Notes under the pieces: generated by a model | Database searches by the model: none | What the model saw: only the letters and a program-made list of their open reading frames with translations | What the model was told of the DNA's origin: nothing | Position numbers and translations under genes: made by a program | Source: Vagococcus jeotgali | GTDB taxonomy: Bacteria; Bacillota; Bacilli; Lactobacillales; Vagococcaceae | Reading direction: 5' to 3' | DNA length: 64,000 bases | Assembly: GCF_035918315.1 (NCBI RefSeq) | Contig: NZ_CP142146.1 | Location: 310,001 to 374,000, forward strand | In this document: positions 23,781 to 46,028 of the stretch, in pieces | How the letters are laid out: each line of letters begins with the position of its first letter | How positions within the stretch are numbered: the first letter of the stretch is position 1

Positions 23781-24005
23781 TATCATTCGAAAGTGATAAT
23801 GTCCTAAGTAGGTCGAAAGACAAAATGTCCCAAAATGATAAAATAACTTTATGAAAAGGATAAATCTAACAATGAATGAAACCAAAAAGTATCAAGTTAT
23901 TAAAGCTGTCGCTGAAAATAAAAAACAAAAAAAGAGAGCTAGTATTGAACTTAATTTATCTAAATGTGAGCCCTCATTTTGGGACATTTTTCTGTTCGAT
24001 TGACA
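23781..24005 (+). mobile_element. Internally deleted IS1202-like element, 225 bp (MITE-like)
   Basis: Both ends match the full IS1202-like element at 41464-43052, in the opposite orientation: the left end starts TATCATTCGAAAGTGATAAT and the right end is ...TTCTGTTCGATTGACA. Between them lie only the first 37 codons of the transposase (from ATG 23851, MKRINLTMNETKKYQ), fused to the far end of the element, giving a 50-codon relic that stops at 24003. About 1.36 kb of interior is missing. No long target duplication is visible at its borders. It could still be moved in trans if the ends work. Confidence 0.88.
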
Positions 24006-41384: not shown

Positions 41385-41435
41385 CAGGAGCTAAAGTCTA
41401 CTCTTGTAATAAGACTTTTGATCTCCTGTTTTTTT
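41385..41435 (+). terminator. Terminator after MarR-ABC operon
   Basis: CAGGAG (41385-41390) and AAAGTCT (41393-41399) pair with AGACTTT (41412-41418) and CTCCTG (41423-41428), then a T-run. The IS1202-like target duplication starts three bases after it. Confidence 0.78.
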
Positions 41436-41463
41436 ATCTTTGAAATAAATAATGAAAAATATG

Positions 41464-43052
41464 TGTCAATCGAACATAAAAATGTCCCAAAATGAGGGCT
41501 CACATTAGCGCAATCTTTACTGCGTAAAACTTGCACTAATGTGACCATTATTGGTAAAATAAGGTACTTTTTGTTTCAGGCTGTTTTTTCAGCCTCATAT
41601 TCTTCGATAGTACGGTCAATACTTTGAAGATACCTTTTGAAAGACTCAAGTTTCCACGGATGTGACTGTGGTGGAATGTACTTGCGTCTTTCTTTTTTTA
41701 TATCTGAAGAAACCCCATCAAACTCTTTTGAATAGGTCTCGTGGGTTTTTAATCGTCTAGTAGGATAAATTTTTTCTGCTATATTAACATAAATCTCCCC
41801 GTTAAAAGCTTTTATAATTAATGCTTTTGTTTTTCTTGTAAAATATTTGTCGCTACTACCTTCCATTGGAAGATAAAATTTATTTTGATACTTAATATGA
41901 TGGCCATTATCGACTATACGATGAGAGACAGTAGCTAGTAATAAATTAATTTCAGCTGTTGTAGGAGAAGTTTCATAAACACTTTCTGCAGTTTTGTGAC
42001 CAAATTGTCGATTAAACTTTCGAATCCATACAGATAGAAATTGATTAGCCTCCTCTATAGAATGTATATTTGCTATCTCAAGATCAACAGGCAATCTTGA
42101 TTGCACTGTCCCATTTAAACGTTCTACACGACCTTTCGCTTGAGGAATAGAGGATGTTTTTATGTCAATACCTAATTGATGACAAGCAAACCCAAACTGC
42201 GTGAACGTATCTTCTTCTACAGCTTTTGTTGATTTTCTGTTGTACTCAAAGACGGTTCGTTTATCTGTTAGAAAAGTGGCAGGAATCCCTTGTTTTGTCA
42301 GAATTTGATGAAGAACATGGTAATAACCATTGAGCGTTTCCTGTTGGTCAAAATAAGCGCCAACAATATTACCTGATGCGTCGTCAATAGCTAAATGAAG
42401 ATGAGTTATTTGATTTCCAAACCAATTATATGAACTAGCATCTAATTGAATTAATTCTCCTTTGTATTTTTTTCTAGGTCGACTAGGATGGGTCTTTTCA
42501 GGGAGTTCTAGGTAGTCTTCAGCTCTTGGAACCAATAGGTTCTCTGATTGTTTGGTTTATTGACCTTCTTGCTTTATTAATTGTTTGAGTCTTCTTTTTG
42601 TCTTTTTTTGAGCCTTTGGTGAAAGTATTTTTGCTTTGTACAGGATGCTTCTAATTGTAGTATCTGTATAACAGATATGATGGTCGTTTTTCAGTATTTC
42701 AGTAAAATGCCTAATATTTGGTTTAATACTAAACGATTGATAACTAGTGATTATTTGTTGTTTTACTTTTTCAGGCACAGAGTGCTTATTTTTTCTCCCT
42801 CGATTTTTATGGACAAATGCTGATTTACCATTTTCCCTGTATGATTTCACTAAACGGTTAATTTGTCGTATAGATAAATTAAGTTCAACACTAGCTCTCT
42901 TTTTTTGTTTTTTATTTTCAGCGACAGCTTTAATAACTTGATACTTTTTGGTTTCATTCATTGTTAGATTTATCCTTTTCATAAAGTTATTTTATCATTT
43001 TGGGACATTTTGTCTTTCGACCTACTTAGGACATTATCACTTTCGAATGATA
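41464..43052 (-). mobile_element. IS1202-like insertion sequence (ISNCY/IS1202 group), 1,589 bp
   Basis: The ends are imperfect inverted repeats: the left begins TGTCAATCGAACATAAAAAT and the right, reverse-complemented, begins TATCATTCGAAAGTGATAAT. It is flanked by a 26-bp exact direct repeat (41438-41463 and 43053-43078, starting CTTTGAAATAAATAATG). Target duplications of about 27 bp are the hallmark of IS1202 relatives. The right copy of the duplication ends immediately before the -35 box of the infC promoter. It carries one transposase gene on the minus strand, interrupted by a stop codon. Confidence 0.92.
41576..42982 (-). pseudogene. IS1202-like transposase with in-frame TAA
   Basis: Reads from ATG 42982 through an N-terminal helix-turn-helix region (residues about 1-75, KRASVELNLSIRQINRLVKS) and a second HTH-like segment, to TAA at 42557-42559. 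The same frame then continues without another stop to 41576. The downstream part holds the DDE catalytic core: IQLDASSYNWFG, FLTDKRTVFEYN and QAKGRVERLNGTVQ. Related transposases are one continuous protein of about 460 residues, so the TAA is most likely a nonsense mutation of Leu or Gln. The second part has only a TTG (42535) as possible start and would lack DNA binding. Confidence 0.87.
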
Positions 43053-43078
43053 CTTTGAAATAAATAATGAAAAATATG

Positions 43079-43107
43079 TTGACTTTCAATCATATCTTTC
43101 GTATACT
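43079..43107 (+). promoter_or_regulatory. Promoter of infC-rpmI-rplT
   Basis: TTGACT (43079-43084), a 17-bp spacer, TATACT (43102-43107): a strong sigma-A-type promoter. The IS1202-like target duplication ends at 43078, directly against the -35 box. Everything upstream of the duplicated 26 bp is therefore element sequence. Confidence 0.85.
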
Positions 43108-43112
43108 AATGG

Positions 43113-43250
43113 AGTTGAGAAATTGAAGCAGAAGCACCCGCTTCTCGCCTGAGTAATATGATATTACTGGGCTAGATAGATGAATTTTGATAGTTTTATC
43201 AAAAATTATGTTGGTGCGGGGTCTTTATTCAAATAAAGAACTCGTTTTTT
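43113..43250 (+). ncRNA. Ribosomal protein L20-type leader with attenuator
   Basis: The 5' leader of infC forms AGAAGC-ACCC-GCTTCT (43130-43145), AGTAATAT-G-ATATTACT (43152-43168), and a terminator-like hairpin TCTTTATT / AATAAAGA (43222-43240) followed by a run of seven T. In Firmicutes L20 represses this operon by binding a leader that mimics its 23S rRNA site and causes early termination. Position and fold order match that model; the assignment as an L20 leader is from memory and is not aligned. Confidence 0.7.
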
Positions 43251-43282
43251 TCTGTGTTTTTCTCTAAAAAATTCGGAGGTGA

Positions 43283-43804
43283 ATGACCATAGCAAAAGAT
43301 ATTATGGTGAACGACGGCATTCGTGCAAGAGAACTACGTTTAATTGCAGCAGACGGAGAGCAGTTAGGTGTCAAAACTAAAGCTGAAGCCCTAGATATTG
43401 CTGCCAAAGCAAATTTAGATTTAGTAGTAGTGGCTCCAACAGCTAAGCCCCCAGTTGCAAAAGTAATGGATTATGGAAAATTCCGTTTTGAGCAACAGAA
43501 AAAGGAACGCGAAGCCCGTAAAAAACAAAAAGTCATTAATGTTAAAGAAGTACGACTAAGTCCAACGATTGATATCAATGATTTTAATACCAAATTGCGT
43601 AATGCGCGTAAATTCCTTGAAAAGGGCGATAAAGTGAAAGCTTCAATCCGTTTTAAAGGTCGTGCGATTACTCATAAAGAAATTGGTCAGAAAGTCTTGG
43701 AACGCTTAGCTGAAGAAACGAAAGATATTTCTAACGTGGAACAGAAAGCGAAAATGGATGGTCGTAGCATGTTTATCATGTTAGCACCAAAAACAGATAA
43801 GTAG
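43283..43804 (+). CDS. infC: Translation initiation factor IF-3
   Basis: Controls start-codon fidelity and keeps 30S subunits free. 173 residues: N-terminal domain ([21 protein letters not shown]), a lysine-rich linker ([19 protein letters not shown]) and the C-terminal domain ending MLAPKTDK. The AUG at 43283 is only two bases from the strong ribosome site GGAGGT, which is too close. An in-frame AUA at 43289, eight bases away, is better placed. IF-3 genes often use rare starts (AUU in several species) for autoregulation, so the true start may be 43289. First gene of infC-rpmI-rplT. Confidence 0.95.
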
Positions 43805-43829: not shown

Positions 43830-44030
43830 ATGCCAAAAATGAAAACTCACCGCGGACTAGCTAAACGTGTTAAACGTACTGGTAGCGGAAAATTAAAGAG
43901 ACATCATGCGTTTACAAGTCACCGTTTCCACGGGAAAACTAAAAAACAACGTCGTCAATTACGTCGTCCAGCAATGGTTTCAGCAGGAGACTACAAACGT
44001 ATCCGTCAACAATTGACTCGTATGAAATAA
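43830..44030 (+). CDS. rpmI: 50S ribosomal protein L35
   Basis: A 66-residue, highly basic ribosomal protein. It begins [18 protein letters not shown] and contains the conserved [21 protein letters not shown] segment. GAGGAGG lies 8 bases upstream of the ATG. It lies 25 bp after infC and 70 bp before rplT in the usual three-gene order. Confidence 0.97.
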
Positions 44031-44100: not shown

Positions 44101-44460
44101 ATGGCACGTGTAAAAGGTGGAAAAGTATCACGTAAGCGTCGTAAAAAGGTACTTAAGTTAGCTAAAGGCTATTACGGCTCAAAACATAGATTATATAGAA
44201 CAGCGAAAGAACAAGTGATGAAATCTCATACTTATGCATTTAGAGATCGTCGTCAAACAAAACGTAACTTCCGTAAATTATGGATTGCTCGTATTAACGC
44301 AGCAGCTCGTATTAACGGTTTAAGCTACTCTAAATTCATGCATGGATTAAAATTAGCAAACATTGATATGAATCGTAAAATGTTAGCTGACATCGCTATT
44401 TCTGACCCAGCTGCTTTTGCAAGCTTAGCAGAAACAGCTAAAGCAGAATTAGCTAAATAA
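44101..44460 (+). CDS. rplT: 50S ribosomal protein L20
   Basis: A 119-residue early-assembly protein of the large subunit. It begins [20 protein letters not shown] with the usual long basic N-terminal arm, followed by the globular part [19 protein letters not shown] and [13 protein letters not shown]20 is also the expected repressor of its own operon through the infC leader. A terminator follows 8 bases after the stop. Confidence 0.97.
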
Positions 44461-44701: not shown

Positions 44702-46028
44702 GGTTGCGTCAAGAATTATGTGTAAATGGAAAATCCATTCCATTATTTTAAGTTAAAACATTGATTCTAATGTATCTTGAATTTCCTTAAATCCTTTATG
44801 ACTCTACCTAAAAACTTTTGGTTATATTCATTGAATTGAGAAACAAGGAATCTCTCCAGAGATTCTTCATTAGGAAATTGTTCTTTTCTCTTTTTATATT
44901 TTTTAACTGTTTATTGAATCCCTCAATCAAGTTAGTTGAGTAGATAGTTCTTCTGATTGATGGCGGGAAGTTATAGAAAGTTAATATAGCAGGATTCATG
45001 AGTAACTTCACAACTCGTGGATACTGCTTTTTCCATTTTTCTGTCATAAAAGTTACTTGTTCAATTGCTTCCTCTTTTGAAAGAGCTTGATAGACAGTTT
45101 TAAAATCATCACAGATTTCTTTTCTATCCTTAACACGAACTTTATGAGCAATATTTCTAGAGACATGAACACAACATTGTTGAAATTGAGCATTTGGATA
45201 GACACTATGGATGCTATCCGTGAATACTGCTTAAACCATCAGTTACAACTAATAAAACCTCTTCTAAACCACGGTCTTTTAGGTCTTGAAGTATCTCTTT
45301 CCAAATGTAGGCAGATTCAGTTGGAGTAGTAGTAAATCCTAGAACTTCTTTGGTTCCATCTAACCGGATACCAATTACTATGTAAATAGCTTCTTTTGCT
45401 ACGGTTTTCCTTTTTACTGGAATATGAGTAGCATCCATAAAAATAACTGAGTATTTAGCCTCTAAAGTTCTTTCTTTAAAAGCTAAAACATCTTCAGATA
45501 CAATTTTACTTATGTTTGAAATAGTTTGTGGCGTGTAATAATGACCATACATCTTTTCAATTAAATCAGAGATTTCAGACATCGTTATTCCTTTTTGAAA
45601 TAGCTGAATAATAGTCGTTTCTAAAGAGTCATTGGTTCTTTTATAAGCAGGTAATGTTTGTTGAGAAAACTCACCATTCCTATCTCTAGGGATTACTAAA
45701 TTTAGTTCTCCATACTCCGTTTTAAATGAACGTGAATCATTCCCATTTCGGGAATTACCTGAATTAACTCCAGATCTATCATATTTTTCATAGTCAAGAA
45801 ATGCTGTCAGTTCAGCTTTTAATAATGAATTAATAGCTAGCTCTAGATGATGGCGAAACAAATCATCCAAATCACCTTTATTGATTAGTGTTTCCATAAT
45901 TTCTGTAGTAAAATTATTCATGAGAAAGTCTTCCTGTAAAATTTCTGTGTGGTAACTTTAATTTTACAGAATGGACTTTCTTTTTTTCTACCCTAAATTT
46001 TTATTTACACAAAATATTTTATGCTATC
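44702..46028 (-). mobile_element. IS256-family insertion sequence, copy B, decayed
   Basis: Same element as copy A in opposite orientation: the left end begins GGTTGCGTCAAGAATTATGT and the right end is ...ATTTTATGCTATC. Unlike copy A there is no target duplication (left flank GTTTGAAA, right flank TGAGAATA). The gene fragment on its right has no counterpart on its left. An adjacent deletion after insertion explains both. The transposase has several frameshifts. Confidence 0.92.
44753..45921 (-). pseudogene. IS256-family transposase, frameshifted
   Basis: Nearly identical to the intact transposase at 26619-27788 for its first 232 codons, including VIFMDATHIPVKR. An extra G then gives GTATTCACGGATAGC instead of GTATTCACGATAGC, and the protein ends at 45214. 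Further one-base losses occur in the A-rich run near 44905 and near 44803, so the C-terminal part with the catalytic Glu is also out of frame. It cannot make an active enzyme but could be moved by copy A. Confidence 0.92.

Follow-up and report, generated by a model that had tools for sequence, protein, structure and literature searches.

Insertion sequences (IS) of the long-duplication group of the IS1202 family very probably integrate in a targeted and oriented manner at σA/σ70 promoters (probability about 0.85, judged from sequence comparison). Specifically, of 109 non-redundant sites, 84 match the promoter consensus in 9 or more of its 12 bases directly after the target duplication, against 0.36 sites expected. 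It appears near certain that relatives of IS1202 target ordinary promoters at the upstream border of the −35 box, in one orientation. This is a known kind of behaviour, promoter targeting, found here in an unrelated family with its own geometry.

The insertion at the infC promoter

In the window, a 64,000-nt stretch of the Vagococcus jeotgali genome, a 1,589-bp IS1202-family element occupies positions 41464-43052, upstream of infC. An exact direct repeat of 27 nt (41438-41464 and 43053-43079) brackets the element; the duplication is 26 nt when the T common to the TGT end of the element and the TTGACT box is counted once. The region is organized as follows.

41438-41463 (no strand): target duplication, left copy, 26 bp
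41464-43052 (minus strand): IS1202-family element, 1,589 bp, transposase read leftwards, transposase-5′ end towards infC
43053-43078 (no strand): target duplication, right copy; native upstream DNA of the promoter, A+T-rich, UP-like
43079-43084 (plus strand): −35 box TTGACT, directly after the right duplication copy
43102-43107 (plus strand): −10 box TATACT, spacer 17, with the −35 box 10/12 promoter-consensus bases
43120-43257 (plus strand): L20 leader RNA of the infC operon (Rfam RF00558, E 7e-12)
43283-43804 (plus strand): infC (IF-3), IF3 domains found
43830-44030 (plus strand): rpmI, named from sequence
44101-44460 (plus strand): rplT, named from sequence

Ten other full-length copies in the same genome align end to end with the infC copy at 99.9%, so both ends of the element are fixed independently. 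An exact repeat of 26–27 bp around a multicopy element is evidently not a matter of chance. As stated in the original prediction, the element is IS1202-like; its duplication is long, with the right copy ending at 43078; TTGACT starts at 43079, directly behind that copy; and an A+T-rich, UP-like stretch lies inside the duplication, beside the promoter. The promoter lies 13 nt upstream of the L20 leader. TTGACT-17-TATACT reads as the promoter of infC-rpmI-rplT, and it presumably still works after the insertion. A −35 box carried by the IS was considered and rejected, because TTGACT lies outside the element and the duplication, and the boxes differ between sites.

All 13 congeners searched have a box aligned with this one before infC, TTGAC in 12 and TTGCA in 1, and an IS at the infC promoter is absent from all of them. 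The alignment shows a promoter that apparently predates the IS at infC. Because the DNA further upstream of the box aligns poorly in these congeners, the comparison demonstrates that a promoter was there before, without providing an exact empty site. One congener (G010) has an IS copy about 1.2 kb upstream of its infC promoter, next to a cold-shock gene (L027).

Behind the upstream ABC transporter gene, inspection by eye showed an inverted repeat with a T run at 41385-41428 that resembles a terminator; the duplication begins just past it. A second transposase, in two frames on the minus strand and IS256-like by eye, lies at 44808-45921, just downstream of rplT.

Insertion sites of IS1202 relatives

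Relatives were found by transposase or profile searches, and their transposases are between 98% and below 40% identical to one or other of two queries; in one relative search, the best 80 of 117 relatives were kept. Where hosts are named, they are almost exclusively Bacillota; the final set also contains one Spirochaetes and one Mollicutes bin. For each locus, an automated finder identified the longest direct repeat enclosing the transposase, used the TGT end as its anchor, and then examined the sequence from the base following the right copy. The score counts matches to TTGACA, 16-18 nt, TATAAT (12 bases) from the base directly after the duplication, and the background consists of 49,704 flank positions of the same DNA.

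The first set started from 149 transposase hits, of which 92 had a duplication of at least 15 nt and a TGT start and 57 were dropped (37 with no duplication, 17 at a contig edge, 3 with no TGT). Removal of identical right flanks left 82, and 81 were used without L014 (tandem copies). For the second set, 46 loci were tried and 17 dropped; 28 of the 29 resulting sites were new, giving the total of 109. This set contains clean duplications only, and sites in one genome share an element. Fragments or contig ends (L048, L054-L057, L063 and L067) were left out of the count, as were L182, L184-L186, L188, L191, L223, L225, L236 and the plasmid loci; L182, L184, L188 and L191 were inspected, the places of L225 and L236 were retried as L254 and L255, and L184 repeats L149. 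L032, whose left end is probably mis-anchored, was kept in the set. The L032 relative is located ~80 nt ahead of a frame with a match to PF06782, to which the TnGBS-type promoter-targeting transposases belong.

At least 8 of the 12 bases are present in 97 of the 109 sites (2.17 expected), and at least 10 in 61 (0.05 expected). By offset, the sites with at least 9 matches number 84 at 0, 7 at −1, 6 at +1 and at most 3 elsewhere, and on the opposite strand no position rises above 6 sites at this threshold. The two sets are alike, with 59 of the 81 first sites and 25 of the 28 later-added sites scoring at least 9, and 40 of the 43 element left-end types are represented among the sites at this score. 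A score below 8 is found at 12 of the 109 sites, including three in the genome of the window.

The abutment at infC could be a coincidence, as promoter-like strings are frequent in the AT-rich DNA of the window (6 found, 7.8 in shuffles). However, the same abutment recurs in the 97 sites with at least 8 matches, and infC is hit again in another genome (G332; L090) by an element whose transposase is about 40% identical, which leaves coincidence with a negligible chance. The idea that infC mainly took a chance hit that happened to be tolerated gives way to promoter-edge integration as the habit of the element, and the tolerance of the insertion by an essential operon is likely a consequence of that habit.

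The finder returned no duplication for the plasmid loci L209-L211, L242 (a Klebsiella short-duplication candidate) and L243. No relative was found in the viral contigs searched, and the phage records searched gave matches at 27-31% only. Among Streptococcus genomes, 6 of 247 have a match; in Streptococcus L183 and L189 (no duplication) and in L182, the promoter lies 27 nt from the IS end, by eye, and at L187 the box is four bases off.

Copies within the V. jeotgali genome

In the 2.0-Mb genome, the copies have 13 distinct contexts on the promoter side. Nine of these show 8 or more of the 12 promoter bases where they are expected (infC, rpoB (L010), an AspRS-type synthetase (L011), L012, L013, secG (L014), yceD (L016), rpsB (L018) and rpsD (L019)). 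The suggestion that other insertions would be found to prefer promoter edges therefore holds in this genome, as it does over all genomes. L013, L018 and L019 have no matching duplication, and their promoters were assessed at a distance of 26-27 nt from the IS end.

Four contexts stay below this score at the expected place: the L009-type site, L015, L017 and the remnant of a second copy in the window.

23781-24005 (minus strand): remnant of second copy, both ends, most of the middle gone

The L009-type site occurs as a full site twice (L009 and L016) and as the left flank of L018, and scores 8 three bases off. The L015 insertion is inside an open frame, and the window remnant scores 7 at 27 nt. 

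Random insertion followed by selection that spares promoters and genes is another conceivable origin of this pattern: an insertion upstream of an intact promoter should be mild, and the nine contexts spare the promoter, several of them at essential genes. Selection would, however, give a spread of distances and both orientations, whereas the surveyed sites peak at one base and on one strand. We consider this origin very improbable; selection is contradicted as a sufficient cause and may add to the pattern.

Flanks are exchanged between L013 and L018, which points to recombination between copies. For both L013/L018 and window 23781-24005/L019, the exchange is between oppositely oriented copies, as inversions by recombination would give. 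Before secG, a tandem pair (L014:3098-6207) consists of an older internally deleted copy, then 29 bp, then an intact copy. The end of the second L014 copy abuts ATTGGCA, with the box after one base and no long duplication. The copy at L012:3026-5004 has an internal duplication of about 390 bp. From 0.03 to 0.83 Mb of the genome, all nine near-full or full copies are co-oriented, and the small window remnant is opposite. The shared orientation is as expected, since promoter targeting of co-directional genes would give it.

Target promoters and duplications

TTG is present at the joint in 86 of the 109 sites. Position by position, the −35 T, T and G occur in 73, 74 and 68 of the 81 first sites, and −10 positions 2 (A) and 6 (T) in 66 and 68 of them. 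Spacers are 15-20 nt long, with 17 nt in 65 of the 81 readable sites, and an extended −10 G is found in 46% of sites versus 20% of 120 intergenic promoter-like controls. The averaged target is a σA promoter, more than a −35 motif.

The lengths of the duplications form two classes, 14-21 bp (mode 17) and 25-30 bp (mode 27), which differ by roughly one helical turn. Since the −35 box directly follows the duplication in either class, the join on the promoter side is constant, and it is the far join that shifts by a turn. In the 14-21-bp class (n=26), 21 sites come from a short-duplication branch, and 19 of these score at least 9; the sites of this class from outside the branch are L015, L030, L032, L160 and L187, L030 and L160 being long duplications with mismatches.

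In the long-duplication sites, A+T is 0.82 versus 0.69 (p 1e-6) in two UP sub-sites, which were chosen after seeing the data, and 0.67 versus 0.68 elsewhere. Nine later sites agree, with A+T of 0.82 inside the UP sub-sites and 0.62 outside. The short-duplication class shows no such UP-like excess (0.72, p 0.15).

The frequent TTG at the joint and the A+T-rich upstream sub-sites of the long class are what would be seen if the transposase read promoter DNA directly (−35 box, phased A-tracts or curvature, −10 box), with no host protein. However, the −10 box 17 nt away is also conserved, and the range of spacers is that read by a σ factor. Moreover, a perfect TATAAT is present in 6 of the 18 first-set sites without TTG. 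Direct reading of the DNA is considered unlikely.

Ends and transposase of the element

The ends and the transposase of the infC copy comprise the following features.

41464-41489 (plus strand): left terminal repeat, TGTCAATCGAACATAAAAATGTCCC
41576-42535 (minus strand): transposase, rest of the same frame, with DDE core and C-terminus
42557-42982 (minus strand): transposase, first part, ends at in-frame TAA
42995-43020 (minus strand): inner motif at the promoter-facing end, complementary (85%) to the left terminal repeat
43029-43052 (minus strand): outer motif of the promoter-facing end

The left end of the element, TGTCAATCGAAC..., carries TGT, and the right end, TATCATTCGAA, is imperfect and without TGT. 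The element has the IS1202-family trait of a TGT end with terminal repeats of about 23-29 bp. Of 27 elements compared by eye, 26 have two motif copies at the promoter-facing end and one at the other. Just inside the left end (41500-41544), there is a 21-bp inverted repeat with a 3-nt loop, 86% complementary.

The TAA at 42557-42559 breaks the transposase frame of the infC copy (41576-42982, minus strand). Ten other full-length copies are open there, so the infC copy probably cannot supply its own transposase. A frameshift in this copy was rejected, as both parts share a reading frame, interrupted by a stop codon that is absent from the other full copies. No second protein gene was found among the open frames of the 1,589-bp element.

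The intact transposase of the L010 copy matches the NCBIfam ISNCY model NF033594 with 386.5 bits (cut-off 250). E286 and Q293 are invariant in the alignments, which places Q seven residues after the catalytic E; in the family description of PMC10132070, a Q at the seventh position after the catalytic E is a signature of the IS1202 family. Pfam searches with the two halves of the infC-copy transposase gave HTH matches only and no PF06782. The structure of the transposase was predicted with moderate confidence (mean pLDDT 77.5). The nearest solved folds are those of CAST TnsB and IS21 IstA (7svw, E 9e-14; 8b4h, E 7e-12), yet relative to CAST/Tn7 TnsB and IstA the overall TM-scores are about 0.3 and the domains are placed differently. 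The N-terminal part matches TnsB by profile (E 3.5e-5). The predicted transposase has a TnsB-like fold.

Proposed mechanism of integration

One position, one orientation and a full promoter logo lead us to propose that the transposase docks on promoter-bound RNA polymerase holoenzyme and not on naked DNA, which we regard as rather likely. Specifically, the transposase would recognize the holoenzyme on the promoter from the side of σ region 4 and the α-CTD. The position, the orientation, the two duplication classes and the repeated hits at housekeeping promoters are read directly from the sequences. For the integration step itself, whatever the docking partner, one strand is very probably joined where the −35 hexamer begins on its upstream side, the transposase-5′ end being turned towards the promoter, and the other strand about 27 bp (in another branch, about 17 bp) further upstream. 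Gap repair would copy the DNA between the two joins, so the promoter would keep its native upstream DNA, and the element would end up between the upstream gene and the intact promoter. The orientation of insertion may come from the asymmetry of the ends (two motif copies versus one). In the usual numbering, the duplicated 26-28 bp correspond to about −36 to −62, where the α C-terminal domains bind.

More tentatively, at somewhat less than even odds, the IS1202 family may consist of landmark-anchored integrases, each group docking on a DNA-bound host protein (XerC at dif, polymerase at promoters). The proximal join would then be at the edge of the protein site and the distal join whole helical turns further (5, 17 or 27 bp). 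If this is true, long duplications would measure the stretch beside the landmark, roughly the α-CTD/UP interval, with the promoter left alive, and the family would be a bacterial analogue of Ty3 with its Pol III gene targets, having arisen independently of TnGBS.

Comparison with known systems

By its 26-bp duplication, the element falls within the long-duplication half of the IS1202 family (group criterion 16-28 bp). Compared by description, the members of this half (IS1202 and ISSeq2; ISTde1, ISHahy13 and others with 16-17 bp; PMC10132070) likewise have an ISNCY transposase and a TGT end, and are also alike in length (1.4-2.0 kb), duplication classes, Q after E and a second motif near the end. 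The difference lies in the target. The account of targets in PMC10132070 places short-duplication relatives beside dif and reports that none could be found for the others, whereas here it is the −35 edge of promoters. The dif hunters of the ISAjo2 group share oriented insertion and a duplication abutting the site of a host protein (XerC), on the left-terminal-repeat side; their landmark, however, is dif and their duplication is 3-5 bp, against 26 bp at infC, which sets the infC element outside this group as described (PMC10132070).

As described in PMC3942029 and PMC4701971, TnGBS, ISLre2 and ISKra4 likewise insert in an oriented manner just upstream of σA promoters. TnGBS has an unrelated, Mutator-like transposase (PF06782), whereas that of the element here is ISNCY; in TnGBS-type elements the −35 box is 15-17 bp from the element end, versus 26 nt here, and the 17-bp branch comes close. 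Contact with polymerase is proposed for TnGBS-type elements in these two papers, and PMC3942029 attributes the orientation of TnGBS relatives to their asymmetric ends and reports, for IS256-type elements, no enrichment at any position.

PMC10045372 describes IS1202 duplications as grouped by length at intervals of one turn and leaves open how the long ones arise, and the passage of PMC10215258 on an IS1202 next to cfr(D) gives no target. A related element on an Enterococcus faecium plasmid (L209) has its transposase-5′ end turned towards cfr(D), and no duplication was found. Among the open-licence PubMed Central records searched, we found no report of promoter targeting by the IS1202 family.

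The present rule would provide a target for IS elements reported without one in the account of PMC10132070, and a handle on the long duplications described in PMC10045372. It would represent convergent promoter-directed transposition in bacteria, by an apparently single transposase, and it predicts where elements are located, namely at housekeeping promoters, which are left undestroyed. If polymerase is the docking partner, the transposase could map active promoters.

Genes downstream of the insertions

A downstream frame lies within 450 nt in 76 of the 81 first sites; 65 of these frames and those of L014, L018 and L019 were scanned (68 in all). In a plain tally, many of the 68 are housekeeping genes, and many others are transporters and metabolic genes. 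The housekeeping genes include S15, S10, S4, S6, L31, SecE, SecG, Cpn60, a cold-shock protein and tRNA synthetases, and SSB occurs twice. Five housekeeping promoters were hit twice, in different genomes.

infC promoter: window, L090
rpoB promoter: L010, L028
rpsB promoter: L018, L037
yceD promoter: L016, L091
rplK promoter: L025, L069

The more distant element in G332 accounts for the second hits at both infC and yceD. The two rpoB insertions, in two species, have different duplications, each exact.
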